A DNA stretch of 17,033 nt, taken from positions 1-17,033 of the forward strand of contig JAGBYS010000002.1 of assembly GCA_017628675.1 (NCBI GenBank), written 5' to 3'. This stretch comes from Tidjanibacter sp. GTDB taxonomy: Bacteria > Bacteroidota > Bacteroidia > Bacteroidales > Rikenellaceae. Each line of letters starts with the position of its first letter. Positions within the stretch are counted from its first letter, which is position 1. Below the pieces are notes generated by a model. That model was not told the DNA's origin, ran no database searches, and saw only the letters and a program-made list of their open reading frames with translations. This document shows positions 1-14,818 of this stretch, piece by piece. A program made the translations under genes and the position numbers.

Positions 1-6
1 CACTCG

Positions 7-723
7 CTAAATCACAAACTCAATCTCCTTGAACAGATAGGGCACAACCATCCCCTGACTCTCAACAAGCAACTCGCCCGAAGGCTTCACTCCCAGGATG
101 ACACCCTCGAATCGTTTGCCACCAGGCAGCGCATAGGTCGCCATCTCGCCTTTGCGGAAGAGCAGCGCGTCGTAGTCGCGCTCGATGGCTGCGGGGTCGC
201 TCTGCAACTGGTTATATCGTGCCTCGAGTGCGTCGTAGAGCCTCTGGAAGACAGCCCCAACATCGTAGCTCTCGCCCGTCAGAGTGGCCATAGAGGTAGG
301 ATTTGGCACCCACTCCTCAAACTCTTTCTGGTTGACATTCAGACCGATGCCCACAATCGTGCGCGCAAGGTGGCCGTCGGTGCCGAGGTCGTGCTCGATG
401 AGGATGCCACAAATCTTCTTGCGGCCCACATAGATATCGTTGGTCCACTTGATCTTGGCCTTTATGTTGTACTCACCCAGCGTGTCCGTCAGGGCCAGAG
501 CCACCGCCTCCGAGAGGAGGAACTGGCGCTTGGCCTCCAGGAAGGTGGGCTCCCACACAAGCGAGAAGGTGAGGTTCTCACCAGGGTTGCTACTCCACCT
601 ATTGCCCCTCTGACCACGGCCTGCCGTCTGCTCCTTGGCAATCACTGCGTCGCCGTGGCGATAGCCGGGCTTCTTGACCTCCGTGTTGGTCGAAGGGAGC
701 GAGCGATAAATCAAAACAGCCAT
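7..723 (-). CDS. birA: Biotin--[acetyl-CoA-carboxylase] ligase, no DNA-binding domain
   Basis: This 238-residue cytoplasmic protein should activate biotin with ATP and transfer biotinyl-AMP to the lysine of biotin carboxyl carrier domains. It shows the class signature: STNTE near residues 11-15, the biotinyl-adenylate loop GRGQRGNRW at 35-43, KWTNDIY at 92-98, KKICGIL at 102-108 and GIGLNVN at 125-131, followed by a small C-terminal beta domain. The winged-helix domain of E. coli BirA is missing, so it is a monofunctional ligase and not a repressor. Its start codon lies 7 bp after the lysC stop, which implies co-transcription with and probably translational coupling to lysC. The stop is 6 bases from the window edge, so any downstream partner is unseen. 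Confidence 0.93.
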   Translation of the reverse strand: MAVLIYRSLPSTNTEVKKPGYRHGDAVIAKEQTAGRGQRGNRWSSNPGENLTFSLVWEPTFLEAKRQFLLSEAVALALTDTLGEYNIKAKIKWTNDIYVGRKKICGILIEHDLGTDGHLARTIVGIGLNVNQKEFEEWVPNPTSMATLTGESYDVGAVFQRLYDALEARYNQLQSDPAAIERDYDALLFRKGEMATYALPGGKRFEGVILGVKPSGELLVESQGMVVPYLFKEIEFVI

Positions 724-730
724 AACTCTG

Positions 731-1999
731 CTACTCTACATTGGTTTTACGGATAATCCTGAGTACCTTGCGCGAGCGCTGGGTCATATAGACGCCCTCC
801 GCCTCGGCATACTGCACCAGGTGCTCCTTGTGGTAACCACGGATGGTCAGCAGCTCCATATCGCTGTTGTACTTCACCGTGAAGCCCGCCTTGTGGAACT
901 CCTCGACAATCTCGTCGAGGTAGCGGGTAGAGTCGATGCAGAGCGCCATACTGATGGCCGAGTTCTGCACCAAATGCACCTTGGCACGATAGCTCTCCAG
1001 GATCTTGAAAATCTCGGCCATACGCTCCTCCAGGATGAAGGAGTAGTCCTCGGGCTTGATGGAGAGCAGAATCTGGTTCTTCTTGAGAATCAGGATGGGC
1101 TTATCGATGGGCCTATCGATCTCGGCCTTGATGACACTACCGGGCAGCGAGGGGTTCACAAAGCACTTCACATAGAGAGGTATGCGTTTGTTCTGAAGGG
1201 GCTTGATGGTCTTGGGGTGGATAATCTGTGCACCGCTGTAGGCCAGCTCAATAGCGTCGAGGTAGGTGAGCTCGGGGATGTAGCTCACATCCTCAAACTG
1301 CTTGGGGTCGCCATTGAGAATACCCTCCACATCCTTCCAGATAGACACGCTCTCGGCGTCGAGGATGTAGCCCGCAACGGCAGCCGAGTAGTCGGAGCCC
1401 TCACGACCGATGGTCGTAGTGGCACCCTGCTCGGTGGCACCAATGAAGCCCTGGCCAACAACAACCCTCTCCTGGGCCAACTCCACGGCCTTCTTGAGGC
1501 GAGGTGTGGAACTTACAATGTCGATATTGGCGTCGCGGAAGCGGTTGCTGGTGAGGAATATGCGCCTCATATCCAGCAGGTGGCTACCAATGCCCGCATA
1601 GTTGAGATACTCGCTCACGATGGTCGTCGAGATGAGCTCACCGAAGCTCACAATCCTATCGTACCACTCCTCATAGCTACGGCTCTGGGGATTGGAGAGG
1701 GTGATGATCTCCTCCAACTCCTCATAGAGGCCACGCACCCTCTCGGGCAGGTGGGGCTCACCCCACAGACCCTCGAGAATTGTGGCGTGGTAGTCCACAA
1801 CCTGCTGCATAGCCACCACAGCCTCACCCGTGCGGCCCTCCCAGAAGCTCTCCATAACCCTCTCGAGCGCATTGGTCGTCTTACCCATAGCCGACACAAT
1901 GATGAAGAGTCTTCCCTCCGTGCCACGCGCAATCTCTGCAAGATTTCTAACTCCTGCCGCCTCCTTCACCGAGGCTCCTCCAAACTTATATACCTTCAT
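731..1999 (-). CDS. lysC: Monofunctional aspartate kinase
   Basis: This 422-residue enzyme phosphorylates aspartate, the entry step to lysine, diaminopimelate, threonine and methionine. Visible motifs are KFGGAS at 5-10, the TTIGREGSDYSA segment at 195-206 that binds nucleotide and aspartate, WKDVEGI at 221-227 and SGAQIIHPK at 255-263. The region from about 305 to the end has the size of a tandem ACT regulatory module, so feedback control is expected, but the effector cannot be read from sequence. No homoserine dehydrogenase domain is fused. The start is preceded by AAAAAGGT directly abutting ATG, as in the hydrolase and metK genes upstream. A short lysine-rich ORF overlaps this start. The symbol lysC is used for the family; which isozyme it is cannot be told. 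Confidence 0.93.
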   Translation of the reverse strand: MKVYKFGGASVKEAAGVRNLAEIARGTEGRLFIIVSAMGKTTNALERVMESFWEGRTGEAVVAMQQVVDYHATILEGLWGEPHLPERVRGLYEELEEIITLSNPQSRSYEEWYDRIVSFGELISTTIVSEYLNYAGIGSHLLDMRRIFLTSNRFRDANIDIVSSTPRLKKAVELAQERVVVGQGFIGATEQGATTTIGREGSDYSAAVAGYILDAESVSIWKDVEGILNGDPKQFEDVSYIPELTYLDAIELAYSGAQIIHPKTIKPLQNKRIPLYVKCFVNPSLPGSVIKAEIDRPIDKPILILKKNQILLSIKPEDYSFILEERMAEIFKILESYRAKVHLVQNSAISMALCIDSTRYLDEIVEEFHKAGFTVKYNSDMELLTIRGYHKEHLVQYAEAEGVYMTQRSRKVLRIIRKTNVE

Positions 2000-2045
2000 A
2001 CCTTTTTCGCAGCTTTTTGTTTTTACCTATTTGTCGCTTTTTCAT
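1986..2045 (-). CDS. Possible 19-residue leader peptide overlapping the lysC start
   Basis: An ATG at 2045 opens a 19-codon frame encoding MKKRQIGKNKKLRKRYEGI, with a TAA stop at 1986. It begins inside the hairpin motif of the lysC leader and ends 14 bases inside lysC in a different frame. Ten of the 19 residues are lysine or arginine. The overlap is the geometry of translational coupling, and a lysine-rich leader before aspartate kinase invites an attenuation idea. However, A-rich leaders in this phylum produce AAA and AAG codons by chance, so this is a candidate only. Confidence 0.25.
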   Translation of the reverse strand: MKKRQIGKNKKLRKRYEGI

Positions 2046-2068
2046 AAAAAAGCTCCGCAAAAAATTTT
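2036..2068 (-). promoter_or_regulatory. Leader motif of lysC (hairpin plus A/T block)
   Basis: Read on the minus strand this is AAAATTTTTT, a five-base spacer, then GCTTTTT-TATG-AAAAAGC. The second part is a perfect 7-bp inverted repeat with a 4-base loop. A matching arrangement precedes the hydrolase gene at 2927-2958. Its role is unknown; a leader hairpin affecting translation or RNA processing is the simplest idea. Confidence 0.45.
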
Positions 2069-2070
2069 AG

Positions 2071-2087
2071 GAGATACTGCGTATCTC
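2071..2087 (-). terminator. Perfect hairpin between hydrolase and lysC, weak terminator or attenuator
   Basis: GAGATAC and GTATCTC form a perfect 7-bp stem around a 3-base loop. On the minus strand a run of six T follows, but only after CTAAAA. That offset, and the low GC of the stem, make a strong intrinsic terminator unlikely. It could reduce read-through from the hydrolase gene into lysC. Confidence 0.35.
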
Positions 2088-2109
2088 TATAACCATTATG
2101 TGTTACTAC

Positions 2110-2916
2110 CTACTCTCCTGCTTCGGCACCCATAAATTTCCTGATTGCCTGGGCACAGGCCTCGGGCTCCTCGAAGTAGCCCAGGTGGCCCGAGTTCTCG
2201 AGCCAGGCGACCTCGGCCTGAGGGTGGTCGGCAACCATCTGCTCGGCAACCTCCAGGGGGATATAGTTATCCTTCTTGCCCAGGATGAAGAGCTGTGGCA
2301 GGGAGCTCTGGCGCAACAGCTCGTTGCTATCCTCCCTCTCCTTCATACCCCTCAGCAGGGCCACAACGCCCTCGGGCTCGGTAACCAACACCTGCTCCTC
2401 GAGGAAGATGATCTCGTCCTGCATCCTCTTGAGGTTATCCGAGGCAAAGCCATTCTTGGCAGCCGTCGAGGCGAGCAGATCCTTATGTCCGCCCTCCACC
2501 ATGGCTATCTCCCTATCACGGTCGAGGAGCTTCTGGGGCGAGTCGGGGTTGGGCGTCGAGCTCAGGAGCACAATGCCCTCCAGGCGCTCGGGGTGACGAC
2601 GCAGGGTCTGGAGCGCCACATAGCCACCCATAGAGTGGCCCACAAGGGTCACCTTCTCAATCTCCAGCTCGTCGAGCACACCAACAACCGTGTCGGCCAG
2701 AAAGTCCATAGTGTGGATGGGGCCCATAACCTGCGAGATGCCGTGACCGGGCAGGTCCATAGCCACCGTGCGGTACTCCTTGTCGAGCAGGCCGGCGAAA
2801 TCCTCCCACACATCCAGGCTCTCAAGGTAGCCGTGGAGAAACATAATAGCCTTCTCACCCTTTCTGGAGTCGGCAATGCGCAGTGCGCAACCGTTCGATA
2901 TGATAAATTTTTCCAT
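2110..2916 (-). CDS. Alpha/beta-hydrolase fold protein
   Basis: This 268-residue protein has no signal peptide and the full alpha/beta-hydrolase layout: an oxyanion segment FLHGY at 26-30, DLPGHG at 54-59, the nucleophile elbow GHSMGG with Ser95, an acidic residue at Asp216 in GKKDNY, and His244 in SGHLGYFE. A lid region of about 60 residues sits between strands 6 and 7. Fold and triad are clear; substrate is not. Esterases, lactonases and C-C hydrolases all share this pattern. A BioH-like pimeloyl-ester role is tempting given the nearby biotin ligase, but sequence alone does not support it. It lies 95 bp after metK and 110 bp before lysC on the same strand, so the metK riboswitch could reach it. 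Confidence 0.85.
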
Positions 2917-2926
2917 ACCTTTCTCC

Positions 2927-2958
2927 GCTTTTTACAAAAAGCAGAACCAAAAATTTTT
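2927..2958 (-). promoter_or_regulatory. Leader motif of the hydrolase gene, like that of lysC
   Basis: Read on the minus strand this is AAAAATTTTT, a six-base spacer, then GCTTTTT-GT-AAAAAGC, a 7-bp inverted repeat with a minimal loop. It ends about 10 bases before the start codon. Order, spacing and arms match the motif at 2036-2068, so the two are related by duplication or convergence. Confidence 0.45.
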
Positions 2959-3011
2959 CGTGTAACCTAATGTCGTAATTCTACCGACTGTTTTGCTTCG
3001 GAGGTTATAGT

Positions 3012-4265
3012 TTAAGCCAACTTGAAAATCTCCTTGAGCCTCTCTACCTCGTCGAGCTCCTCCCAGGCGAAGAACTTCACCTGCTGGCGGATGGTCTTGC
3101 CACCCCTGGTGAGCTCCATCTCCTCGGTGTAGGGCCTACGGCCGAAGTGGCCATAGGAGGCTGTGGGCTCAAAGATGGGGTTGGTGAGGCCAAAGCGACG
3201 CACGATAGCTGCAGGGCGCAGGTCGAACATCTCGGATACTATCTCGGCGATTCTTCCATCGGACACGCCTACCTTCGAGGTACCGAAGGTGTCCACGAAG
3301 ATGTTGATGGGCTCGGCCACGCCAATGGCGTAGCTCACCTGCACCAGCATCCTCTCGGCCACACCTGCGGCCACCATATTCTTGGCGATGTGGCGTGCGG
3401 CATAGGCTGCCGAGCGGTCCACCTTCGAGGAGTCCTTGCCCGAGAAAGCGCCACCACCGTGGGCACCACGACCACCATAGGTATCAACGATAATCTTGCG
3501 ACCGGTAAGGCCCGTATCGCCGTGAGGACCACCGATGACGAACTTGCCCGTGGGGTTAACATAGAGGATATAGTCGTCGCCAATGAGGTCGGCCAGGTGG
3601 TCACCTGCCTTCTCCAGACGGGACTTCACACGAGGAATCAGGATGTGGCGCACATCGTCGGCAATGATTCTCTGGCAATCCTCAAAGTCGTCGTGCTGAG
3701 TCGACACAACGATGGTGTGGACCCTCAGGGGGGTGCCGTTGTCGTCGTACTCGATGGTCACCTGGCTCTTCGAGTCGGGGCGCAAGTAGCGCATAACCTC
3801 GCCCTCACGACGGATGGAGGCCAACTCCTTGAGGATAACGTGCGAGAGGATGAGGGTTGCGGGCATCAACTCACGAGTCTCGGTGCAGGCATAACCAAAC
3901 ATAATGCCCTGGTCACCGGCACCCTGCTGCTCCTCCACCTCGCGCTCGACACCCTGATTGATGTCGCTCGACTGCTCGTGGATGGCAGAGAGAATACCAC
4001 ACGAGTTGCCGTCGAACTGCAGCTCGCTACGGTTGTAACCTATCTGGTTGATAACCCTGCGTGCCACGCCCTGGATGTCCACATAGGCGTCCGAGCGCAC
4101 CTCGCCCGACACTACCACAAGACCTGTGGTGCAGAGAGTCTCGCAAGCGACCTTGCTTGTGGGGTCCTTGCGCAAAAATTCATCAAGAATTGCGTCCGAA
4201 ATCTGGTCGGAAACCTTGTCGGGATGTCCCTCGGATACCGACTCGGAAGTAAACAAAAAAGCCAT
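3012..4265 (-). CDS. metK: S-adenosylmethionine synthetase
   Basis: This 417-residue cytoplasmic enzyme makes SAM from methionine and ATP and works as a homo-oligomer. Diagnostic motifs are GHPDKVSDQ at 13-21 with catalytic His14 and Asp16, [12 protein letters not shown] at 115-126, the [13 protein letters not shown] segment around 245-257, and the P-loop-like [19 protein letters not shown] at 270-288. It is some 30 residues longer than the E. coli enzyme. The start is fixed by [13 protein letters not shown] directly after the N-terminus and by AAAAGGT abutting ATG. A leader of about 230 bases carries a SAM-II-like aptamer, so the gene is probably repressed by its own product. The next three minus-strand genes may share the transcript. 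Confidence 0.97.
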
Positions 4266-4278
4266 ACCTTTTAATTAA

Positions 4279-4306
4279 GTTGAGAGTTGAAAGTTGAGAG
4301 TTGAGA
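4279..4306. repeat. Heptad array in the metK leader, consensus GTTGARA
   Basis: Four consecutive 7-mers (GTTGAGA, GTTGAAA, GTTGAGA, GTTGAGA) plus a partial fifth unit lie 14 bases upstream of the metK start, inside the predicted 5' leader. On the transcribed strand the unit reads TCTCAAC. Copy-number change here would alter spacing between riboswitch and start codon. Confidence 0.85.
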
Positions 4307-4384
4307 GTTATAATCCCAATCCGACAACCCAGTGAATAATTCCTAATTTTTATTGGTGGATAGCTTTAGCTCTTGGATGTAGAG

Positions 4385-4405
4385 GTCGGGGGCGAATGCT
4401 CCGAC
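4385..4405 (-). promoter_or_regulatory. Candidate expression-platform hairpin of the metK leader
   Basis: On the minus strand GUCGG and CCGAC can pair around an 11-base loop just downstream of the aptamer. An alternative helix uses part of the same bases: GGGGCGAA in loop 3 (plus-strand 4446-4453) can pair perfectly with UUCGCCCC (4389-4396), extended by GCUC (4438-4441) with GAGC (4398-4401). The two structures exclude each other, as expected for a switch. No U-run follows, so the mechanism is unresolved. Confidence 0.4.
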
Positions 4406-4409
4406 TATC

Positions 4410-4497
4410 GCTTTTTAGCACATTTTTGCCGAGCCCCGAGCGCTGTTCGCCCCTGGAACTTCGGCGTGGTTTGCAAGCAGCCAAATCTTTCCACGCC
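4410..4497 (-). ncRNA. SAM-II type riboswitch aptamer upstream of metK, with extended loop 3
   Basis: Read on the minus strand, P1 is GGCGTGG (4497-4491) with CCACGCC (4469-4463). The enclosed loop contains GATTT followed by GCTGCTTGC (4481-4473). That last segment can form the P2 pseudoknot with GCTAAAAAGC (4419-4410). The canonical SAM-II aptamer, as I recall it, has GAUUU, then CCGUAUUGC, then AUAAAUGUAGCUAAAAAGG; here the 3' part reads AAAAATGTGCTAAAAAGC. The outer P2 pairs are exchanged in a compensatory way (CC/GG becomes GC/GC), which supports real pairing. Loop 3 is enlarged by roughly 35 bases. Placement directly before metK fits the ligand. SAM-II is best known from Alphaproteobacteria and has been reported from Bacteroidetes. 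This is a manual match, not a covariance-model hit. Confidence 0.75.
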
Positions 4498-4498
4498 A

Positions 4499-4506
4499 CA
4501 AAGGTA
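4499..4506 (-). promoter_or_regulatory. Bacteroidetes -7 element of the metK promoter (TACCTTTG)
   Basis: This is a perfect match to TAnnTTTG on the minus strand. It lies one base upstream of the riboswitch P1 stem, so transcription should start within the first bases of P1, leaving at least a CGUGG/CCACG stem. The -33 element is weak and falls inside the heptad array at 4516-4547. Confidence 0.6.
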
Positions 4507-4515
4507 CGACAAAGA

Positions 4516-4547
4516 ATTGAGAATTGAAAATTGAAAATTGAAAATTA
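4516..4547. repeat. Heptad array, consensus ATTGAAA, upstream of the metK promoter
   Basis: Four consecutive 7-mers (ATTGAGA, then three ATTGAAA) plus a partial fifth lie 9 bases upstream of the metK -7 element. They occupy the position of the -33 element. The unit is the same size as, and similar in sequence to, the arrays at 4279 and 9618. Confidence 0.85.
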
Positions 4548-4637
4548 ATGTCCTTAAGGTCTTTAGGGGCTTTAATGAGCTATGGGGCTGTAAGGAGAGG
4601 GATCGCAGTAAGGTAAGATCCGTAAGACTTAGGTCGG
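4548..4637. other. Intergenic stretch without a gene
   Basis: The gap between metK and cysS is 637 bp and holds no gene I can support. This part contains the palindrome CCTTAAGG, two loose copies of a GGGGCTnTAA motif about 20 bases apart, and degenerate lead-in copies of the TTAGAC heptad. I see no clear function in it. Confidence 0.5.
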
Positions 4638-4664
4638 TTAGACTTTAGACCTTAGACTTTAGAC
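4638..4664. repeat. Heptad array, consensus TTAGACY
   Basis: Four near-identical units (TTAGACT, TTAGACC, TTAGACT, TTAGAC) stand in tandem. The 15-mer CCTTAGACTTTAGAC at 4650-4664 recurs exactly at 9801-9815, and both copies lead into an A-rich run. This shows a dispersed intergenic repeat family. Confidence 0.85.
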
Positions 4665-4687
4665 AAAAAAAACGCAGATAGCGAGGG
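4665..4687 (+). repeat. Solo copy of the AAAACGCAGATAGCG repeat unit
   Basis: An A-run followed by ACGCAGATAGCGAGGG matches the left end of the element at 4779-4904 except for one missing G. It stands as a direct repeat about 113 bases before that element. The intervening DNA has a small hairpin, GCGAC-AACG-GTCGC, and no gene. Confidence 0.7.
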
Positions 4688-4778
4688 AAATTTTGTACCA
4701 AACGAAGGAGCGAGCCCGCAGGCGACAACGGTCGCAGCGAGTGATGGAGGTTTCACTCAACCGCTTTCCCTTGAAACA

Positions 4779-4904
4779 AAAAAACGCAGATAGCGGAGGG
4801 AATGCAAGGCGCACAAGAAAACCACCTCCGCAGTTTACAAGGCGTAAATGAGGAGGTGGTTTATCGCAGTGCAACGCAGCAGTCACCCGCTATATGCGTT
4901 TTTT
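4779..4904. mobile_element. 126-bp MITE-like element with 18-bp terminal inverted repeats
   Basis: The left end AAAAAACGCAGATAGCGG (4779-4796) and the right end CCGCTATATGCGTTTTTT (4887-4904) are inverted repeats with 17 of 18 positions matching. The interior carries a strong hairpin and no coding potential. The right end runs into the cysS stop codon (4903-4905). No target-site duplication is evident, and no transposase lies in the window. It could be a non-autonomous element or a REP/BIME-like palindromic unit that serves as a transcript end. Confidence 0.5.
4819..4862 (-). terminator. Hairpin terminator downstream of cysS
   Basis: AAACCACCTCC (minus strand, from 4862) pairs perfectly over 11 bp with GGAGGTGGTTT (ending at 4819), and an inner TTTAC/GTAAA stem extends the structure. 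On the minus strand the stem runs straight into TTTTCTTG, a moderate U-tract. It lies about 40 bases after the cysS stop, inside the inverted-repeat element. No U-tract follows on the plus strand, so it acts for cysS if it acts at all. Confidence 0.55.
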
Positions 4905-6372
4905 ACGCTTGTTCCCAGTCCACACTACCGTCCTTATTATCCTTTACGCGGATGCCGATCTCGGTCAGACGGTTGCGAATAAGGTCGGCGGTGGGCCAAT
5001 CCTTGTTGGCCTTGGCGGTACGACGGATCTCGAGAATCATATCCATAAGGGGTGCGAGCTTATCGTCGGCACCCTCGCTGCGCTCGTTGCGAAGACCAAG
5101 AATGTCAAATACATAGAGATTTACCACACGCTTGAGCTCTGCCAAATCGTCGGCGGTGATGCTCTCCTTGCCGTCGGCCAGGGAGTTAATGATCCTCACC
5201 CAGTCGAACAGGGCCGAGATGACCATAGGCGAGGAGAGGTCGTCGTTCATAGCATCCTCACAACGGGTTGCCAGTTCCTCGACCTTCACCGATGAGGTGG
5301 CCGAGGGTTTAATCTTCTCGAGCGCATCCACAGCCTTCATAAGCCTATCGTAGCCCTTCTCGGCGGCCTTGAGTGCCTCGTTGGAGAAGTCGAGAGTGGA
5401 ACGGTAGTGTGCCTGGAGGATGAAGAAACGCACGGTCATAGGCGAGTAGGCCTGGTCGAGTTTGTCGTGGGTGCCCGTGAAGAGCTGCTCAAGGGTGATG
5501 AAGTTGCCGAGCGACTTACCCATCTTCTGACCGCCGATGGTGATCATATTGTTGTGGATCCAGTAGCGTGCCGAGTCGTGACCGAGCGAGGCGCACGACT
5601 GTGCAATCTCACACTCGTGATGGGGGAACATAAGGTCCATACCGCCACCGTGGATGTCGAACTGCTCACCCAGATACTTGGTGCTCATTGCGGTACACTC
5701 GAGGTGCCAACCGGGGAAACCGTCGCTCCAGGGCGAGGGCCAGCGCATAATGTGCTCGGGCTGCGCCTTCTTCCACAGGGCGAAGTCGTAGGAGTTGCGC
5801 TTGTCGCTCTGGCCGTCGATCTCACGGGTGCCCACAAGCACATCGTCGAGGTTGCGGCCCGAGAGTTTGCCGTAGTGGTATTTCTCGTTGTACTTGGTCA
5901 CATCGAAGTAGATGGAGCCGTTGCTCTCGTAGGCGTAGCCCTCCTTGAGGATGCGCTCCACCAGGGCAATCTGCTCAATGATGTGGCCGCTGGCGTGGGG
6001 CTCAATCGATGGGGGAAGAACGCCGAGTTTGTCCATAAAGGTGTGGTAGCGGTTGGTGTAGTACTGTGCAACCTCCATAGGCTCAAGCTGTTCGAGCCTT
6101 GCCTTCTTGGTGATTTTGTCCTCGCCCTCATCGGCGTCGTGCTCCAGGTGGCCCACATCTGTGATATTGCGCACATAGCGCACCTTGAAGCCCTGAGCCT
6201 TCAGGTAGCGGAACAGCAGGTCGAAGGTGATGGCGGGGCGGGTATGGCCCAGGTGGGGATCGCCATAGACGGTGGGGCCACACACATACATTCCCACGTG
6301 CTCGGGATTGATGGGTTTGAAGAGCTCTTTCGTACGCGAAAGAGTATTGTATAACATTAATTTTGTTGCCAT
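4903..6372 (-). CDS. cysS: Cysteinyl-tRNA synthetase
   Basis: This 489-residue class I synthetase charges tRNA-Cys. It has HLGH at 40-43 (the HIGH motif) and KMGKS at 283-287 (KMSKS with Gly for Ser, which I recall as common in this phylum). Zinc-ligand candidates are Cys31 in VCGPTV, Cys226 in HLECTAMS, and His252 and Cys254 in FPHHECE. An in-frame ATG further upstream at 6432 would add 20 residues but lies upstream of the predicted transcription start. I therefore choose the ATG at 6372, giving MATKLMLYN; the ATG at 6357 (MLYN) is an alternative. The C-terminal DALR and anticodon-binding regions are complete. The gene is divergent from the DUF2723 gene, and its stop codon overlaps the right end of a repeat element. 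Confidence 0.96.
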
Positions 6373-6396
6373 AATCTCTGATTGGTCTAATTTGAG

Positions 6397-6435
6397 GTTG
6401 TAAAAGTACTCATTATTTTCGTAACTTTGCAAAAT
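6397..6435. promoter_or_regulatory. Overlapping divergent promoters of cysS and the DUF2723 gene
   Basis: On the plus strand GTTG (6397-6400) is followed after 21 bases by TAACTTTG (6422-6429), a perfect TAnnTTTG. On the minus strand TTTG (6433-6430) is followed after 21 bases by TACTTTTA (6408-6401), one mismatch from TAnnTTTG. Each promoter uses bases of the other, so RNA polymerase binding should be mutually exclusive or at least competitive. Predicted leaders are about 30 bases for the DUF2723 gene and 20-25 for cysS. Confidence 0.65.
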
Positions 6436-6464
6436 ATTTCGTGCAAATAGAGAGTTATTTATCT

Positions 6465-9400
6465 ATGAAAAGCTATAAAAGAATCAACAACCTGCTTGGC
6501 TGGGCGACTTTTCTTCTCTCGGCCATAGCCTACATTCTCACCACCGAGCCCTCGGCAAGCTTCTGGGATTGTGGCGAGTTCATTCTCTCGTCCTACAAGA
6601 TGGAGGTTGGTCACCCTCCCGGTGCACCTCTGTTTATGATGCTCGCCAACTTCTTCACCCAGTTCTCCTTTGGCAATGTGGAGAATGTGGCCCTGATGGT
6701 CAACATTATGTCCTCGCTGGCGGCTGCCGCAACCATTATGTTCCTCTTCTGGACCATTACTCACATCTCTCGCAGGATGGTGTGTGGCCGCTCGGAGGAG
6801 CCCTCGCTGGGCAAGACTATCGCCATTATGGGTGCCGGCTTTGTGGGCGCAATGGCCTATGCCTTCACGGACACATTTTGGTTCTCGGCTGTGGAGGCGG
6901 AGGTCTATGCCCTCTCGTCGCTGATGACGGCGGTGGTTGTGTGGGCCATCCTCAAGTGGGAGGAGGCCGCCGACAAGAAGGGCAATGAGCGCTGGCTTAT
7001 CTTCATTGCCTATATGATGGGCCTCTCCATTGGCGTTCACATCCTTAACCTTCTGACCATCCCCGCTCTGGTCTTTGTCTACTACTTCCGCAAGACCCCC
7101 AAGGTGACCCCCAAAGGGCTCATTGTGGCAACGGCCATAAGCGGAGTGCTGATTCTCTTTCTGAACAGTATCATCATCCCCTATACCACCCAGATTGGTG
7201 CCTGGTTTGACCGTATGCTCAACTCGGTAGGTGTGCCCGTGAATGTGGGCTTTGCAATCTATGTGATTGTTCTCTTTGTGGCACTCGGCCTGGGCATCTG
7301 GCAGACCCAGAGGCGCAGTATGAGGCTTGCCAACCTGGCCCTTACGGCCCTCACGGTGATACTCATCGGCTACTCCTCCTATGCGTCGGTCATCATCCGC
7401 GCCTCGGCCAACCCTCCGATGAACTCCAACAACCCCGACAACCCATACTCACTCCTGTATCTGCTGAACCGTGAGCAGTATGAGGCGCAACCCATCATCT
7501 CGGGTGCCTCCTATGCAGCCCCCGTGTCGGACATCAAATATCGCACCAAGTACTATAAGAGTGAGGATGGCAAATATGTGGGCGAGAGGACCATCTCGGG
7601 CTATGACTACCCTGCCGAGTTCAAGTCGCTCTTCCCCCGTATGTGGTCGAGTCAGGACAGACACATCAAGGGCTATGAGTCGTGGGGTGAGGTCAAGGGT
7701 CGCCGCATAATCTACGACAGGGAGAGTTTCTGGGTGCCCACCTTCGGTGAGAACCTGCGTTACTTCTTCAACTATCAGCTCAACTTTATGTACTGGCGCT
7801 ACTTCCTCTGGAACTTCGTGGGTCGCCAGAGCGACAATCAGTCCGTGGGCGAGCTGACCGATGGCAACTGGATCTCGGGTATCAAGGCCATAGACGAGGC
7901 TATGGTGGGCCCACAGGACAGCCTGCCCGACCAGATGCGCAACAATAAGGCACGCAACCGCTACTACTTCCTGCCACTACTCCTGGGCCTTATGGGCCTC
8001 TTCTGGCAGCTCTCGCGCAACCCCCGCTACTTCTCGGTGGTGATGTGGCTCTTCTTGATGATGGGCGTAGTGCTGGTTGTCTATTTCAACTCGCCTCCCG
8101 GTGAGCCCCGTGAGAGGGATTATGTCTATGCCGGCTCCTTCTATGCCTTCTCGATGTGGATAGGCTTCGGCGTACTGGCCTTGGTGGAGTGGGCCCGCAA
8201 GGTACTCACTAAGGGCGAGGTGGCACCCGCTGTAGTGGCCGTTGTGGTGGCCCTCTCGGTGCCCACAATCCTCTGTGCCGAGAACTGGGACGACCACGAC
8301 CGCAGTGGCCGCTATGTGATGCGCGATATGGGCTACAACTACCTCCAGACCGTATTGCCCAACTCCATCATCATCAACTATGGCGACAACGACTCCTACC
8401 CTATGTGGTACAATCAGGAGGTCGAGAACATAAGGCCCGATGTGAGGATTATGAACCAGAGCTATCTGGGTGGCGGCTGGTACATCGAGCAGATGAAACG
8501 CCGTCTGAACGAGAGCGACCCCGTGCCCTTCTCGATGCCTCAGAGCAAGTATATGTTTGGCAACTTCGACTACATCTTCGTTCAGGACATCGTGGACTAC
8601 CGTGTGGATCTGGCACAGGCGATGGCTGTCGTAAGGAGCGAGAACCCCAACACCAAGCTCCTGCTGGACGAGAACGACCCAGAAAGTCTTACCTTCGACT
8701 TTATGCCTCAGCACAAACTCTCGCTGCCCGTGGATAAGGAGAATGTTCTGGCAGCAGGCATCGTCAAGCCCGAGGATGCACACCTCATCCTCGACCACCT
8801 GGAACTCGACATCAAGGGTCAGACCCTCGAGAAACCCGAGGTTATGATTCTCGATATGCTTGCCAACTTCGACTGGAAGAGGCCTATCTACTTCGTGCAG
8901 CCCAACCTGCTCAGCAACCTGGGCCTTGGCGACTACCTCCAGTACGACGGCTTCGCCTATCGTCTGGTGCCCATCAAGACCCCCGTGGAGAGTGCTGCCG
9001 AGATGGGTCGCATCGACACCGACTACCTCTACCACAACCTTATGGAGGTCTATCGCTATGGCAATGTAGCCGACCCCGATGTCTATGTCGATAACTTCTC
9101 GCGCTACAACCTCACCTCCATACAGGCTCGCAGCGCCTTTGCCCGTCTGGCCGAGGCCCTCATCAAGGAGGGTGACACCCAGAGGGCGCTTCAGGTGCTC
9201 GACCGTGGCATTGAGGTGCTCCCCTTCGAGAAGCTCCCCCACGGCTATCAGTCCTTCGCCTACATCGACGCCTACTACACCGCAGGCGACATCGAAAAGG
9301 GCGACAAGCTCGCACGCGAGTTTGCCAACCAGCTGACGCAGTTCCTCTACCACTACTTCACCTTCCCCGACCGTCTGCAGCCACTCATCTATGACCAGAT

Positions 9401-9629
9401 GATGGACGAGTATCAGTACCTCCACCACCTGATCTACTCCGTGCTCCTGCCCCACGACCGTATGGAGTTGGTGAACGAGTGTGGCAAGTCGCTCGACATC
9501 GTGGATCTCTTCTTCGGCATTGTCTACGACGAGAGTGGCAAGGCGGAGGACACGGGCATTGTGGTCAACGACCGCACCCGCCAGGAGTTCCTCCAGAGCA
9601 TCGAGGGACACTTTGTAATTGAGAGTTGA
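6465..9629 (+). CDS. DUF2723 membrane protein, TMEM260-like GT-C O-mannosyltransferase homologue
   Basis: This 1054-residue protein has many membrane helices between about residues 11-312 and 500-605, with soluble parts between and after them. The first loop carries SFWDCGEF (Asp35, Glu38) and VGHPPGAPLF at 48-57. This is the acidic and HPPG signature of DUF2723, a GT-C family that includes human TMEM260, an O-mannosyltransferase. A lipid-linked sugar donor and a periplasmic protein acceptor are therefore likely. The C-terminal half has a NYGDNDSYPMWY segment near 637 and TPR-like helices near 888-960. I chose the ATG at 6465 over an in-frame GTG at 6441 because the -7 element ends at 6429, which puts the GTG almost at the transcription start. 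The last codons and the stop lie in a heptad repeat. Confidence 0.85.
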   Translation: MKSYKRINNLLGWATFLLSAIAYILTTEPSASFWDCGEFILSSYKMEVGHPPGAPLFMMLANFFTQFSFGNVENVALMVNIMSSLAAAATIMFLFWTITHISRRMVCGRSEEPSLGKTIAIMGAGFVGAMAYAFTDTFWFSAVEAEVYALSSLMTAVVVWAILKWEEAADKKGNERWLIFIAYMMGLSIGVHILNLLTIPALVFVYYFRKTPKVTPKGLIVATAISGVLILFLNSIIIPYTTQIGAWFDRMLNSVGVPVNVGFAIYVIVLFVALGLGIWQTQRRSMRLANLALTALTVILIGYSSYASVIIRASANPPMNSNNPDNPYSLLYLLNREQYEAQPIISGASYAAPVSDIKYRTKYYKSEDGKYVGERTISGYDYPAEFKSLFPRMWSSQDRHIKGYESWGEVKGRRIIYDRESFWVPTFGENLRYFFNYQLNFMYWRYFLWNFVGRQSDNQSVGELTDGNWISGIKAIDEAMVGPQDSLPDQMRNNKARNRYYFLPLLLGLMGLFWQLSRNPRYFSVVMWLFLMMGVVLVVYFNSPPGEPRERDYVYAGSFYAFSMWIGFGVLALVEWARKVLTKGEVAPAVVAVVVALSVPTILCAENWDDHDRSGRYVMRDMGYNYLQTVLPNSIIINYGDNDSYPMWYNQEVENIRPDVRIMNQSYLGGGWYIEQMKRRLNESDPVPFSMPQSKYMFGNFDYIFVQDIVDYRVDLAQAMAVVRSENPNTKLLLDENDPESLTFDFMPQHKLSLPVDKENVLAAGIVKPEDAHLILDHLELDIKGQTLEKPEVMILDMLANFDWKRPIYFVQPNLLSNLGLGDYLQYDGFAYRLVPIKTPVESAAEMGRIDTDYLYHNLMEVYRYGNVADPDVYVDNFSRYNLTSIQARSAFARLAEALIKEGDTQRALQVLDRGIEVLPFEKLPHGYQSFAYIDAYYTAGDIEKGDKLAREFANQLTQFLYHYFTFPDRLQPLIYDQMMDEYQYLHHLIYSVLLPHDRMELVNECGKSLDIVDLFFGIVYDESGKAEDTGIVVNDRTRQEFLQSIEGHFVIES

Positions 9630-9638
9630 AAATTGAAA
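9618..9638. repeat. Heptad array overlapping the DUF2723 stop codon
   Basis: Three 7-mers (ATTGAGA, GTTGAAA, ATTGAAA) match the arrays at 4279 and 4516. They begin within the coding sequence, so the final residues and the TGA stop (9627-9629) are repeat-derived. Confidence 0.8.
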
Positions 9639-9740
9639 ATGGGAGAAATGGGAGAGATGGGAGTTTCCAAAAAAAACTCAAATTCCCTTTATAATTTTGA
9701 ATTTTGAATTTCTTTTGGCCCTTTTAGCCCTTTTGGCCCT
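9638..9740. repeat. Short tandem repeats of period 9 and 7 in the gap after the DUF2723 gene
   Basis: Three arrays follow each other. At 9638-9663 the 9-mer AATGGGAGA occurs almost three times. At 9693-9712 the 7-mer AATTTTG occurs twice plus a partial unit. At 9713-9740 the 9-mer TTTTGGCCC/TTTTAGCCC occurs three times. A TAATTTTG match to the -7 element at 9692-9699 lies in the middle and could serve the hydrolase gene at 9831, but its -33 partner is weak. Confidence 0.7.
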
Positions 9741-9802
9741 TTCCCTCCCCTAACTTAGGGAAGGGTGGGCAAAGCCCGGGAGATGTCTGCATGCGTTACA
9801 CC

Positions 9803-9823
9803 TTAGACTTTAGACGATAGACA
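9803..9823. repeat. Heptad array TTAGACN upstream of the secreted hydrolase gene
   Basis: Units TTAGACT, TTAGACG and ATAGACA end 7 bases before the start codon at 9831. The 15-mer at 9801-9815 is identical to 4650-4664. Confidence 0.75.
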
Positions 9824-9830
9824 AAAAGCA

Positions 9831-10961
9831 ATGAAGCGCCTATTTACCATAGTGATTGCCACACTGTTGGCGGTGGCGACGCTCTCGGCCCAGGAGGTCG
9901 TGGACAGGTTGCCGCGTGGCTGGCAGCCCCAGACCTCTTTCCCTATGGCCTGGAGTGGTGAGGGCGACTTCGAGGCGTGGCGCACGGCGGCCCGAGAGAA
10001 GATTGTGGAGCTTATGGGTCTGGCTCCCACCGAGCCCACCTCCACCTCCTATCGCACCCTGGCCTCCGAGAGGCGCGATGGCTACACCGCCCACAAGATT
10101 GAGTTTGAGATATCGCGCAACAACTTTGTGAGGGCCTACCTCCTGGTGCCCGATGGCGAGGGCCCCTTCCCTGCCCTTGTGGCGCTCCACGACCACGGAG
10201 CCAAGTTCTCCATCGGCAAGGAGAAGATGATCCGCCCCATAGCCGAAAGCCCCGAGGTGGTGGCCGAGGCCGAGGAGTGGGTCAAGAAAAACTACGACGG
10301 CATCTTCACGGGCGACTGGTTCGCCTCGCAGGGCTATGTCGTACTCGCTATTGACGCCCTAATGTGGGGCAACCGTGGCGAGGGTGAGGATGGACGCCAG
10401 ACACGCTACGACACCCAGCAGGCTGTGGCCTCCAACTGCCTCAAGTTGGGCACCACACTCGTGGGCATAATCACCTGGGACGACCTCCGTAGCATAGATT
10501 TCCTTGCGGCTCAGGAGTTTGTGGTGGCCGACCGCATAGGCCTCTATGGTCACTCTATGGGTGGCCACAGGGCGTGGATGGCAGCCGCTCTGAGCGACAA
10601 GGTCCGTGCCGTGGCCTCGGTGTGCTGGATGGCCACCTCCGAGGCGCTCCTGCAGTCGGGCAACAACGAGCTCAAGGGTGGCTCGGCCTTTTCAATGCAG
10701 ATACCTATGGTGAGTCGCTGGCTCGACAACCCCGACATAGCCTCACTCGCCTGTCCCCGTGCGGCACTCTTCATCTCGGGCACCGAGGATAAACTCTTCC
10801 CCGCAGGTGTCCGTGAGGCATACGAAAAGATGGCTCTGGTGTGGCAATCCCAGGGTGCCGAGGAGATGTTCCACTACAGCCTCTACCCCTCGCCCCACTA
10901 CTTCGGCACCCAGATGCAACAAGAGGTGGCCGACTTCTTCGCCCGCCACCTCTCAAAATAG
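9831..10961 (+). CDS. Secreted alpha/beta hydrolase (dienelactone hydrolase / acetyl-xylan-esterase-like)
   Basis: This 376-residue protein starts with a signal peptide, MKRLFTIVIATLLAVATLSA, with likely cleavage after SA at 20. The mature part is one hydrolase domain: ALHDHG at 118-123 for the oxyanion hole, the nucleophile elbow GHSMGG with Ser242, Asp320 in SGTEDKLFP, and His356 in PSPHYFG. An insertion with KNYDGIFTGDWFASQGYVVL precedes the core DALMWGNRGEGE segment. This pattern resembles Bacteroidetes hydrolases annotated as dienelactone hydrolase or Abhydrolase_7, many of which sit near polysaccharide genes; a carbohydrate-ester substrate is plausible but unproven. It lies 201 bp after the DUF2723 gene, separated by repeats, and probably has its own promoter. 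It converges with the small genes at 10987-12191. Confidence 0.85.
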   Translation: MKRLFTIVIATLLAVATLSAQEVVDRLPRGWQPQTSFPMAWSGEGDFEAWRTAAREKIVELMGLAPTEPTSTSYRTLASERRDGYTAHKIEFEISRNNFVRAYLLVPDGEGPFPALVALHDHGAKFSIGKEKMIRPIAESPEVVAEAEEWVKKNYDGIFTGDWFASQGYVVLAIDALMWGNRGEGEDGRQTRYDTQQAVASNCLKLGTTLVGIITWDDLRSIDFLAAQEFVVADRIGLYGHSMGGHRAWMAAALSDKVRAVASVCWMATSEALLQSGNNELKGGSAFSMQIPMVSRWLDNPDIASLACPRAALFISGTEDKLFPAGVREAYEKMALVWQSQGAEEMFHYSLYPSPHYFGTQMQQEVADFFARHLSK

Positions 10962-10986
10962 CTCTCAACCCAGAGAGCAACACGCG

Positions 10987-11079
10987 CTACTTGTAGTCAT
11001 CGAAGAGACTCCTATGCCCCGTGAGATACAAAAGCACATTGATTACAAGGCCGATAACAACAATCACTTTCAATATCAT
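10987..11079 (-). CDS. Putative 30-residue single-pass membrane peptide
   Basis: An ATG at 11079 opens a 30-codon frame ending in TAG at 10987. The peptide begins MILKVIVVIGLVINVLLYL, a clear transmembrane helix, and ends with a short polar tail, TGHRSLFDDYK. The start lies 13 bases after the stop of the 82-residue gene on the same strand, so it looks like the last gene of that operon. The hydrophobic helix flanked by a charged tail is unlikely for random frame, but at this length homology is needed for proof. Confidence 0.5.
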   Translation of the reverse strand: MILKVIVVIGLVINVLLYLTGHRSLFDDYK

Positions 11080-11092
11080 AACACAAACATCT

Positions 11093-11341
11093 CTATTTAG
11101 GGTTATTAAATCTGCCCCACCTGTGGTCTATCTCCCGCCAATACTCCCTACCCTCGGGGGTGGCGGCCCAATCGAAGGCGTGACACAAGACATATTCGGG
11201 CTCACCCGCCTCCCACAGTTTCTCGTCCAGAGCCGTGAAGGCGTTGAAGCGGTAGAAGGCGATATCGAAGGCCTCCTCGCACCCTTCGGCCCGCAGGAAC
11301 GAGCGAAAGTGGTCATATGTGGGCCACGAGGCTAATCCCAT
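11093..11341 (-). CDS. Hypothetical 82-residue acidic, aromatic-rich protein
   Basis: This small soluble protein is rich in Trp, Phe, Tyr, Asp and Glu, with segments AFDWAATPEGREYWREID and HFRSFLRAEG that look helical. I do not recognise the family. Its ATG overlaps the last 10 bases of the zinc-ribbon gene, so the two are translationally coupled and probably expressed at a fixed ratio. There is no signal peptide or membrane segment. The coupling suggests a partner role with the zinc-ribbon protein. Confidence 0.75.
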   Translation of the reverse strand: MGLASWPTYDHFRSFLRAEGCEEAFDIAFYRFNAFTALDEKLWEAGEPEYVLCHAFDWAATPEGREYWREIDHRWGRFNNPK

Positions 11342-11538
11342 AGAATCACATCCTTCAGTTTGTAGATAAAATCCTTATCCTGAGGATTGTAGCGCTGATT
11401 ACACGCAGGGCAGAAGAAGGGGGCTCGCTCGTCGCTCACATCGCCACACCCCACACACGCATACACAAACCCCACGCCCGCCTGGTGCTCAAACTCCACA
11501 CCGCACTTCTCGCAGTGCACTCTATAAATCACTCCCAT
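11332..11538 (-). CDS. Small six-cysteine zinc-ribbon protein
   Basis: This 68-residue protein starts at the ATG at 11538 (MGVIYRVHCEKCG), 4 bases after the stop of the upstream gene. An extended frame starting at 11649 runs through that gene and is not credible. Three CxxC pairs are visible: CEKC near residues 9-12, CVGC near 28-31 and CPAC near 42-45. They could bind one zinc as a rubredoxin-like or zinc-ribbon knuckle, with a spare pair. Small proteins of this kind may bind nucleic acids or act as assembly partners; the function is unknown. It overlaps the next gene by 10 bases. Confidence 0.75.
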   Translation of the reverse strand: MGVIYRVHCEKCGVEFEHQAGVGFVYACVGCGDVSDERAPFFCPACNQRYNPQDKDFIYKLKDVILWD

Positions 11539-11542
11539 AGCG

Positions 11543-11944
11543 CTATCGGTCGCAGATTTTAACAGCGGGCACGGTCTTGTAGTTACCCGCCTTAGTTGGA
11601 TACTGATAGGTGCCCACCTGACGCACAAACTTGCCCTGTGGCACCTCAATTATCTGGTCGTCGTAGTAGTGTACACCCTCGTCAACAAGGAAGAGCACAA
11701 CCATACCAAAATAGGTGCCGTGGCCACTCGAAGCATTTGCCAACGCATTGCCACCACCGACCACCTGCAGGACCTCATAGGAGGGGCTTGTCATAACCTC
11801 GCCCGCCTGGTCAAAGAGTGTGAGGCCGGGAATCTTGGTCGTGTGGGAGTTCGACTTCATACCTGCTGCCACCATCAACAATACCAAAAAGAGAACCGCT
11901 GCACCCGAAACGAAACCTAAAATAAATACTACATACTTTTTCAT
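11543..11944 (-). CDS. Hypothetical membrane-anchored exported protein
   Basis: This 133-residue protein starts MKKYVVFILGFVSGAAVLFL, a long hydrophobic helix (4-28) that would act as an uncleaved signal anchor, leaving about 105 residues outside the cytoplasm. The outer part has FDQAGEVM near 44-51, YEVLQVVGGGNALA near 56-69 and a GKFVRQVGTYQYPTKAG segment near 103-119, rich in Val, Gly and Tyr and probably a small beta domain. I do not recognise a named family. It begins 22 bases after the upstream 74-residue gene and ends 4 bases before the zinc-ribbon gene, so it is a mid-operon gene. Confidence 0.8.
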   Translation of the reverse strand: MKKYVVFILGFVSGAAVLFLVLLMVAAGMKSNSHTTKIPGLTLFDQAGEVMTSPSYEVLQVVGGGNALANASSGHGTYFGMVVLFLVDEGVHYYDDQIIEVPQGKFVRQVGTYQYPTKAGNYKTVPAVKICDR

Positions 11945-11966
11945 AATATATTGATTTTTAATTAAT

Positions 11967-12191
11967 TTAGTACTCTAATGAAAATAATGTAACTATAATA
12001 ACGATAGCCACAAACAGAAACATCAAATTGAGGAGTCGCTTGAGTTGTTTCTTTGTCTTGGGGTCGAATTCTGGATTTATAAAAACCATCATAAAATCCT
12101 GATATTTTAGTGTTAAACTTGCTAATGGGTTGTTAATCTGCGCCTCAGCCGAAGAGGATGTCACCACGCTCTCATCTATCCTCACCGACAT
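11967..12191 (-). CDS. Hypothetical 74-residue protein with a C-terminal membrane helix
   Basis: The ATG at 12191 gives MSVRIDESVV, about 45 bases after the predicted transcription start. A longer frame from 12275 would read through the regulator's terminator and is rejected. A soluble N-terminal part of about 45 residues (Ser-rich, then LKYQDFMMVFINPEFDP) is followed by a basic stretch, KTKKQLKRLL, and a hydrophobic helix, LMFLFVAIVIIVTLF, close to the C-terminus. That is the layout of a tail-anchored inner-membrane protein with the N-terminus in the cytoplasm. It is the first gene of the small-gene operon, and its promoter overlaps a palindrome shared with the upstream region of the WYL regulator gene. 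Confidence 0.65.
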   Translation of the reverse strand: MSVRIDESVVTSSSAEAQINNPLASLTLKYQDFMMVFINPEFDPKTKKQLKRLLNLMFLFVAIVIIVTLFSLEY

Positions 12192-12201
12192 TTGGCCATA
12201 C

Positions 12202-12241
12202 AAAAAAAGTCCCGACAACGCTCTTGCTGCATTGTCGGGAC
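12202..12241 (-). terminator. Intrinsic terminator of the WYL regulator gene
   Basis: GTCCCGACAA (from 12241) and TTGTCGGGAC (ending at 12209) form a perfect 10-bp stem followed by seven T on the minus strand. It lies about 40 bases after the regulator's stop codon. Its 5' arm coincides with the transcription start region of the next gene. Confidence 0.85.
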
Positions 12242-12248
12242 AAAGGTA
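12241..12248 (-). promoter_or_regulatory. -7 element (TACCTTTG) for the small-gene operon
   Basis: This perfect TAnnTTTG match ends on the first base of the terminator's 5' arm. A transcript beginning 4-6 bases later would lack half of that arm, so it should not terminate there. The -33 region falls within the palindrome at 12259-12275. Confidence 0.6.
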
Positions 12249-12258
12249 AGGGGCTGTT

Positions 12259-12275
12259 TTGACAACTTCTGTCAA
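12259..12275. promoter_or_regulatory. Palindrome TTGACA-N5-TGTCAA, candidate operator
   Basis: The 17-bp sequence TTGACAACTTCTGTCAA is a perfect 6+6 inverted repeat. It lies 3 bases past the regulator's stop codon, over the -33 region of the small-gene promoter. The same half-sites with a 6-base spacer occur at 13300-13317 upstream of the regulator gene. I found no third copy in the window. Confidence 0.6.
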
Positions 12276-12278
12276 TGG

Positions 12279-13196
12279 CTATTTTTCTTCGTGATAAATC
12301 GTATTTTTTAGCGCCTCGATTTTTCCTTTGATATACTCCTCAAAGTCGGGCGAGAGGATGCGGATGTCGTGCATAAGGCCCAGGGTGAAGCGGCCGATGC
12401 CCGCATAGTCGCAGACCGCAGTATCCAGGAGCCAATGCCCCTGGTCAATTGGGGTGAGGTCGCGCGTTGCGAGTGGGTACTCCTCCACCAGGAGATTGTG
12501 GGCCATCATACCGAGTTCGAGTTGCACCCTGCGCTGCTCGAAGCCCGTGATACGGAAGATGTCGATGTAGCCCTCGTGGTGTTCGGCCCCACTCTGCCAC
12601 CCCTCTGCCAAAACCTCCACCGAGCCGATGCGGGCCGTGTTGAAGAGTTTATTTTTGCCCGACTCCGGCTCATAGCACCACACCTGGACATAGTTCGTGG
12701 TAAAGCCAAAGGGCTCAACGAGCCTATCACGCACAATACCCGTATGGGAGGATGCGTAGCGCCTCAAGATTACCTGCCTGCGCCCACCGATGGCCTCCAC
12801 CAAGCGGTTGACATTCACGGCGTTCTTGCCCTCCACGACGCACTCCGCAAGCGAGGTGCAGTTATAGACCGAGGTGAGTTTCTTGCGCAGATTTTGCTTA
12901 ATGACATTGGTGTTGTCGAGCCCCTCAATGAGTTGATTTACGATGTAGGCCTCCTCGTCGGTGAAGTGGATAAGCTGCGAAATCTCCTTGAAGTAGCGGC
13001 TCTCCTTGCCGAGTCGGTAGATACCCCCCTCCTTGCGTTGCACCACAAAACCCGCCTCCTTGAAGGTGTCGATGTAGCGATAGACCGAACGGTAGGAGGT
13101 GCCAAGTCGCTCGGCCATATCCTCCACGGTGTAGTTGTTGTTGCCCGTCATCATCTTCATCAGACGCAGCACTCGCTCAATTTTCGGCTGTTCCAT
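12279..13196 (-). CDS. HTH/WYL-domain transcriptional regulator
   Basis: This 305-residue cytoplasmic protein has an N-terminal winged helix-turn-helix at about 5-60 (YTVEDMAERLGTSYRSVYRY then AGFVV). A WYL-type sensor region around 125-215 is recognisable from RDRLVEPFGFTTNYVQVWCYE and LFNTARI, followed by a C-terminal extension. The literal W-Y-L triplet is not kept; NYVQVWCYE stands in its place. WYL proteins sense nucleic acids, nucleotides or other small ligands and act as repressors or activators. A candidate promoter (TAACTTTG at 13234-13241) and a palindrome at 13300-13317 lie upstream, and a near-identical palindrome lies just past the stop codon, so self-regulation and control of the small-gene operon are plausible. 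A strong terminator ends the gene. Confidence 0.8.
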   Translation of the reverse strand: MEQPKIERVLRLMKMMTGNNNYTVEDMAERLGTSYRSVYRYIDTFKEAGFVVQRKEGGIYRLGKESRYFKEISQLIHFTDEEAYIVNQLIEGLDNTNVIKQNLRKKLTSVYNCTSLAECVVEGKNAVNVNRLVEAIGGRRQVILRRYASSHTGIVRDRLVEPFGFTTNYVQVWCYEPESGKNKLFNTARIGSVEVLAEGWQSGAEHHEGYIDIFRITGFEQRRVQLELGMMAHNLLVEEYPLATRDLTPIDQGHWLLDTAVCDYAGIGRFTLGLMHDIRILSPDFEEYIKGKIEALKNTIYHEEK

Positions 13197-13233
13197 ATCA
13201 CTCTCCGCAAGGCCATTAGAGTCCCTCGGCCCC

Positions 13234-13241
13234 CAAAGTTA
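13234..13241 (-). promoter_or_regulatory. -7 element (TAACTTTG) of the WYL regulator gene
   Basis: A perfect TAnnTTTG match lies 38 bases upstream of the start codon on the minus strand. I do not see a good -33 partner, so confidence is moderate. Confidence 0.5.
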
Positions 13242-13268
13242 TGAAATTTTCTCGTTGCTCCCTCGCCT

Positions 13269-13296: not shown

Positions 13297-13299
13297 CAA

Positions 13300-13317: not shown

Positions 13318-13341
13318 AAAAACCTTCGCCACAAAAGCAAC

Positions 13342-13377: not shown

Positions 13378-13397
13378 ATATACAATATTGGTATAGA

Positions 13398-14792: not shown

Positions 14793-14818
14793 AGTCTGTT
14801 TTTTATTTAGCGTTTAGA

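Follow-up and report, generated by a model that had tools for sequence, protein, structure and literature searches.

The metK gene of Tidjanibacter sp. (Rikenellaceae) is probably controlled at the level of translation, and from a distance, by a SAM-II-type aptamer that lies near the 5′ end of its mRNA, carries an additional hairpin (P3) and acts through a downstream segment complementary to it, the anti-aptamer. Four observations made by computation carry this proposal: the match of the aptamer to a known RNA family, the compensatory changes in P3, the pairing of the anti-aptamer with the aptamer and the co-variation of this pairing across Bacteroidota. The pairing stretch suggests how a SAM-II sensor could control a gene start lying far from the aptamer. 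The analysed sequence, hereafter the window, is a stretch of 17,033 nucleotides (contig JAGBYS010000002.1 of assembly GCA_017628675.1, positions 1 to 17,033), in which the following elements were located, given from 5′ to 3′ along the transcript with the evidence in brackets.

4499..4506, minus strand: TAnnTTTG-type promoter-like box TACCTTTG, immediately 5′ of P1 (sequence)
4491..4497, minus strand: P1 5′ strand, GGCGTGG (sequence, RF01726 match, predicted fold)
4483..4487, minus strand: loop 1 segment, GATTT (sequence, RF01726 match)
4473..4481, minus strand: P2 5′ strand, GCTGCTTGC (RF01726 match, predicted fold)
4463..4469, minus strand: P1 3′ strand, CCACGCC (sequence, RF01726 match, predicted fold)
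4428..4465, minus strand: P3 hairpin (GCCGA...TCGGC), inserted where loop 3 begins (predicted fold, compensatory changes)
4410..4419, minus strand: P2 3′ strand, GCTAAAAAGC (RF01726 match, predicted fold)
4385..4405, minus strand: downstream hairpin GTCGG...CCGAC, kept in the relative G005 (terminator-like tail absent from this strand)
4356..4375, minus strand: putative anti-aptamer CAAGAGCTAAAGCTATCCAC, able to form 18 pairs with the 5′ strand of the aptamer (duplex energy, leader fold)
4358..4367, minus strand: putative anti-start segment AAAGCTATCC, within the anti-aptamer (−10.5 kcal/mol with the start region, p 0.25)
4258..4268, minus strand: start region GGTATGGCTTT, with the ATG at 4265-4263 (duplex with the anti-start segment, predicted fold)
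3012..4265, minus strand: metK, S-adenosylmethionine synthetase, 417 aa (start shared by MetK relatives)

The SAM-II aptamer upstream of metK

An earlier note, made from the letters of the sequence alone, had placed a SAM-II-like riboswitch before metK and had suggested searching this region with the Rfam SAM-II covariance model. When the window was scanned against Rfam up to an E value of 1, the sole match was RF01726 (SAM-II, long loop) at 4500-4405 on the minus strand, over model positions 1-60 of 60, with 33.8 bits and an E value of 0.0036; a genome search with RF01726 alone gave the same aptamer an E value of 8.2e-5. The classical SAM-II model, RF00521, had no match in the window up to E 1. 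The 7-bp P1, the GATTT segment and the P2 strands described in the earlier note are all present at their places on the minus strand in the order of SAM-II (RF01726), and the outer P2 pairs, which the note had described as swapped, still match each other in the window. The RNA before metK is thus real, a SAM-II aptamer at the place reported for it. Its score of 33.8 bits is, however, below the RF01726 gathering score of 44 bits, and the aptamer is therefore named here a SAM-II-type variant. The length of the loop 3 insert is probably responsible for the low score, since the aptamer of genome G005, with a core identical to that of the window and a shorter insert, reaches 45.0 bits and passes the cut-off.

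The gene for SAM synthesis itself, metK (4265-3012), lies downstream of the aptamer on the same strand, and the nearest named relatives of its product are the MetK proteins of a Rikenellaceae bacterium (77%) and an uncultured Alistipes (74%). The window aptamer would be expected to bind SAM. The aptamer itself is ordinary for the order, in which 288 of 392 genomes have RF01726 matches at E up to 0.001 (284 above the cut-off), and 49 of 60 relatives match at E up to 0.1 (41 above the cut-off). Within the genus, metK was detected in 21 of 23 genomes and was preceded by the SAM-II core in all 21; weak RF01726 matches, perhaps due to chance, appear in further genus genomes when E values up to 1 are admitted. 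A second SAM-II match, above the cut-off with 45.2 bits, was found in genome G004 (L050, 1501-1562, minus strand), with the core changes GATTACAAG and GCTGAAA; it sits 163 bases upstream of a reading frame beginning MNLAIVGTGYVGLVSGTCF that by eye resembles a nucleotide-sugar dehydrogenase.

Directly 5′ of P1 the window carries TACCTTTG, a box of the type TAnnTTTG, which we take to be the Bacteroidetes promoter consensus. Of 161 Bacteroidota metK leaders, 141 have this motif at most 45 bases upstream of the aptamer, compared with 5 occurrences (control-set size not given) in a control window 100-145 bases upstream of the aptamer. Its placement suggests that the aptamer is located at the 5′ end of the mRNA. 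As the box abuts P1, the outermost P1 pairs may escape transcription.

Two tandem arrays of 7-base units, of 4.6 copies each, flank the leader at 4515-4546 and 4278-4309, with AATTGAA and AGTTGAG as their plus-strand units; one precedes the promoter-like box and the other lies just before the metK start codon. The 1.6 Mb genome contains 12 copies of CAATTNTCAATTNTCAATT and 0 copies of this sequence read backwards. Another 7-base array (unit TTAGACT, 3.9 copies) is found at 4638-4664, between cysS and metK.

A hairpin inserted into loop 3

The enlargement of loop 3 by about 35 bases, claimed in the earlier note, is confirmed by comparison with 161 Bacteroidota metK leaders: the stretch from TTGC to GCTAAA measures 53 bases in the window and 15-19 bases in 146 of the 161, so that the window is about 36 bases longer. 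It exceeds 22 bases in just 13 of these leaders, 11 of which come from the genus of the window. The insert is predicted to fold into one hairpin of 38 bases, P3 (−20.6 kcal/mol, z −2.99), which adjoins P1, shares with it the GCC of the P1 3′ strand and may stack on it.

Compensatory changes support P3 in 7 of the 11 long-insert genus leaders, the set on which all counts were made (G013 and G014, misaligned by one base, were left out). For its four basal pairs, 96.4% of cells are paired, against 14-50% in controls where the partner was slid, and three of the four have changed on both sides; the covariation score was equalled in 3 of 500 shuffles. Further pair types in P3 were not beyond shuffles (211 of 500). 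When seven long-loop leaders were folded together with RNAalifold, P3 was retained, and of the anti-aptamer only the outer GUGGA/UCCAY part. G003 has a different hairpin of its own at the P3 site. Outside the genus, a leader from Flavobacteriaceae (L149, upstream of metK) has by eye what appears to be its own hairpin, GCTGA...TCAGC, where loop 3 begins; it would have been inserted there independently of P3, at the corresponding place.

A putative antisense segment downstream of the aptamer

The anti-aptamer lies beyond the region covered by the earlier note (4385..4506). In the window, positions 4375-4356 (CAAGAGCUAAAGCUAUCCAC) pair with GUGGA, AG, UUUGGCU and CUUG of the aptamer, making 18 pairs with three interruptions and a duplex energy of −20.9 kcal/mol. 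Folded without constraints, the leader (4496-4248) has this pairing in its lowest-energy structure (−68.2 kcal/mol), and the lowest-energy fold of the G005 leader (−57.7 kcal/mol) is likewise the anti-aptamer structure. Compared with shuffles of the inter-region, the pairing in the window is borderline (p 0.041 with 2000 shuffles, 0.06 with 200).

Across Bacteroidota, the aptamer 5′ strand of each leader was duplexed with the inter-region between P2 and the start codon and compared to dinucleotide shuffles. A first set of 132 leaders was reduced to 110 distinct ones, and these by similarity to 50 representatives; the aptamer pattern was present in 41 of 80 MetK loci, and 3 of the 39 others had fewer than 100 bases upstream. 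For a second set, 60 regions were fetched and 51 used, 2 being without the metK motif and 7 without the aptamer pattern; its sequences were fresh, yet the order-wide search behind it also supplied part of the first set, so that the two are not fully independent. In the first set the mean z was −1.47, with p<0.05 for the anti-aptamer in 38 of 110 distinct leaders, and in the second set −1.90, with p<0.05 in 27 of 51.

Inter-regions pair better with their own aptamers than with those of other leaders. This cognate pairing gave z −6.1 (p 5e-5) over the 50 representatives, where shuffled inter-regions had a mean z of −1.4 (sd 0.9, lowest of 20 −3.5), the region upstream of the aptamer z +0.5 and the reverse complement of the inter-region z −1.1. 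In the second set the cognate z was −8.3, with values of +0.9, −2.1 and +0.1 in three shuffled controls, and over the pooled 101 leaders it was −11.1. The signal is carried by the P2 half of the aptamer 5′ strand (z −4.9, 50 representatives); the P1/loop 1 half, which hardly varies, did not co-vary when taken alone (z −1.1, p 0.14, same leaders). Among the pooled 101 leaders, the P1 3′ strand showed some co-variation with the inter-region (z −2.9) and the P2 3′ strand, used as a control, none (z +1.0). With this last value we dropped another hairpin suspected by eye, an anti-P2 hairpin between the P2 3′ strand and the bases just downstream.

Leaders with long exact complements include L130 and L226, with 12 bases each, and L020, L156 and L218, with 11 each; 96 of the 161 leaders are non-significant for the anti-aptamer when taken singly. 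In the genus, a search of the whole inter-region gave p<0.05 in 1 of 21 leaders only, perhaps because the inter-regions there are long. For the stretch just 5′ of and overlapping the start partner, chosen post hoc with the data already seen, aptamer pairing had p<0.05 in 8 of 21 genus leaders, the element being cut short in L001 and L040. A downstream segment that pairs and co-varies with the aptamer strands thus appears to be present over the phylum, and is borderline in the window alone.

By eye, three metK leaders of Flavobacteriaceae (L155, L156 and L158) have a hairpin GCTTTTGA...TCAAAAGC that ends shortly ahead of the ATG and holds the anti-aptamer in its loop. This may be a different layout of the switch; under the definition used in the leader test, the start arm is not significant in the three.

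A putative start codon arm

The end of P2 (4410) and the metK ATG (4265) are about 145 bases apart, as stated in the earlier note, and its conclusion that a control other than direct masking would be needed is supported by this distance. No ribosome-binding site lies inside or next to the aptamer with P2 ending at 4410 and the ATG at 4265. A candidate for the missing connection is part of the anti-aptamer itself: AAAGCUAUCC (4367-4358) can pair with GGUAUGGCUUU across the AUG (4268-4258) at −10.5 kcal/mol. In the window this start arm was not significant against shuffles (p 0.25, and 0.37 in the first-set test).

Over the phylum, p<0.05 was obtained for the start arm in 22 of 110 leaders of the first set and 10 of 51 of the second, and the cognate z was −3.4 for the 50 representatives and −4.0 for the second set (shuffled −0.4, sd 0.7). 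Genus leaders reached p<0.05 in 8 of 21 cases, with stems that all span the AUG, such as CCAUUUUAAAA/UUUUAAAAUGG, CCAUAAUAA/UUAUUAUGG and CCAUAUUAA/UUAAUAUGG. The excess of leaders in which anti-aptamer and start partner overlap is modest: 29 of the 50 representatives (expected 23.5, p 0.053) and 36 of the 51 leaders of the second set (expected 28.7, p 0.018). The start codon arm is therefore supported over the phylum, and in the window itself it is putative.

Proposed mechanism and alternatives

In the mechanism that we propose, the segment 4375-4356 would pair without SAM with the aptamer 5′ strand (the P1, loop 1 and P2 5′ strands), by which the aptamer would be undone and the segment held away from the start codon, leaving metK on. 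With SAM, the aptamer would fold and release the segment, and the released 4367-4358 would then pair with GGUAUGGCUUU at the start codon, turning metK off. The pairings of 4367-4358 with the aptamer and with the start are mutually exclusive, and the anti-aptamer also excludes the aptamer. The direction of switching and translation as the controlled step are what we infer, and a direction that is off with SAM would suit a gene for SAM synthetase. With P2 and SAM left out of the count, constraining the leader to the off-fold costs 11.9 kcal/mol relative to the on-fold; therefore, either P2 and SAM would compensate for the difference or the choice would fall while the RNA is being transcribed. 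The predicted on-fold does not leave the AUG entirely open, since a small local hairpin has it in its loop.

Other readings of the same leader have to be weighed. The anti-aptamer fold could be real while SAM acts on transcription, through a terminator or Rho, or on mRNA decay, and not on the start codon. The weaker signal of the start arm compared with the anti-aptamer, and its lack of significance in the window, would agree with this, and in alpha- and beta-Proteobacteria SAM-II is mostly tied to terminators (PMC2258182); yet the start arm co-varies over the phylum, and a scan of 4200-4920, limited to intrinsic terminators, found no terminator-like site on the metK strand and one on the other strand, where shuffles average 1.0 over both strands. 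We consider such a route unlikely. A classical direct occlusion, or a plain control by closing of P2, would dispense with any downstream platform, and we hold this to be quite improbable: it leaves the co-variation of downstream sequence with the P2 5′ strand unexplained, and the start codon is some 145 bases beyond P2, even though the window aptamer has kept the conserved core, direct occlusion is the stated mode of SAM-II (PMC10907184) and the SAM-II of Sinorhizobium meliloti metA controls a start 74 bases downstream by means of a Shine-Dalgarno (SD) sequence in the aptamer (PMC9373788).

The earlier note had itself proposed a two-state platform, in which GGGGCGAA in loop 3 would pair with TTCGCCCC further along the leader and so compete with the downstream hairpin. 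Both segments of eight bases are indeed present on the minus strand (4453-4446 and 4396-4389) and fully complementary, and TTCGCCCC falls inside the hairpin 4405-4385. What did not stand is their conservation. Of the ten long-loop genus leaders tested (G003, an eleventh, was outside the test), the window alone has GGGGCGAA, and G005, whose MetK is 97% identical to that of the window, keeps the downstream hairpin and TTCGCCCC without it; moreover, GGGGCGAA is situated within P3, whose stem is conserved through compensatory changes. Because of its absence from all other leaders tested, including this nearest relative, the GGGGCGAA switch is rejected as a conserved element, and we give it very little credence as the working mechanism. 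The comparison of metK leaders, which the earlier note had recommended, thus spoke against the GGGGCGAA helix and for a different alternative pairing, that of the aptamer 5′ strand with 4375-4356, which co-varies over the phylum. Seen from the plus strand (4384-4406), the downstream hairpin resembles a terminator with ATCGCTTTTT as its tail; shuffles average 1.0 such sites.

Control through the anti-aptamer may extend beyond the window. Perhaps, and we would put this a little short of an even chance, the metK SAM-II of Bacteroidota is in general an alternating-fold and not a direct-occlusion riboswitch, at which an antisense element chooses between the aptamer 5′ strand (GUGGA...) and a similar start region (AUGG...), with no need for a Shine-Dalgarno sequence and with hairpins in loop 3 as optional additions. 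Provided that the anti-aptamer is real, the SAM-II aptamer works in an entire phylum through a long-range alternative fold, and SAM-II control of distant starts becomes directly testable.

Relation to known SAM-II riboswitches

In text searches judged by title or abstract, no published account of a SAM-II platform in Bacteroidota was recognised, and the papers cited below do not describe the anti-aptamer in the parts covered. The window aptamer belongs, as a variant, to a published family, RF01726, entered as a table row “SAM-II long loops ... Bacteroidetes, marine” by Weinberg et al. 2010 (PMC2864571). It shares with this family the core sequence, the P1 and P2 strands, a SAM gene downstream and a Bacteroidetes host, and differs from it by the 38-base hairpin in loop 3, which probably pushes the score beneath the family cut-off, and by the proposed anti-aptamer and start arm, which lie outside the 60-position model. 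With the classical SAM-II (RF00521) of alpha-Proteobacteria, of which a few cases were also reported in the Bacteroides group, it has in common a single stem P1 and a pseudoknot P2 (PMC1273637), but RF00521 itself does not match the window at E up to 1. The same 2005 paper names Bacteroides thetaiotaomicron in connection with SAM-II (PMC1273637).

As for the mode of control, a 2007 survey linked SAM-II in Proteobacteria to terminators, its most frequent association in the alpha and beta classes (PMC2258182), and a 2024 review classes SAM-II as a direct-occlusion riboswitch, with the ribosome-binding site inside the aptamer (PMC10907184), whereas the start in the window is about 145 bases away. 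An antisense segment is not described in the available part of the study on S. meliloti metA, nor does “Bacteroid” occur there (PMC9373788). The metA riboswitch of S. meliloti resembles the window in that it controls a start codon at some distance downstream from its aptamer; it needs the SD inside the riboswitch, while in the window this role would be taken by an antisense segment that pairs with either the aptamer or the start (PMC9373788).
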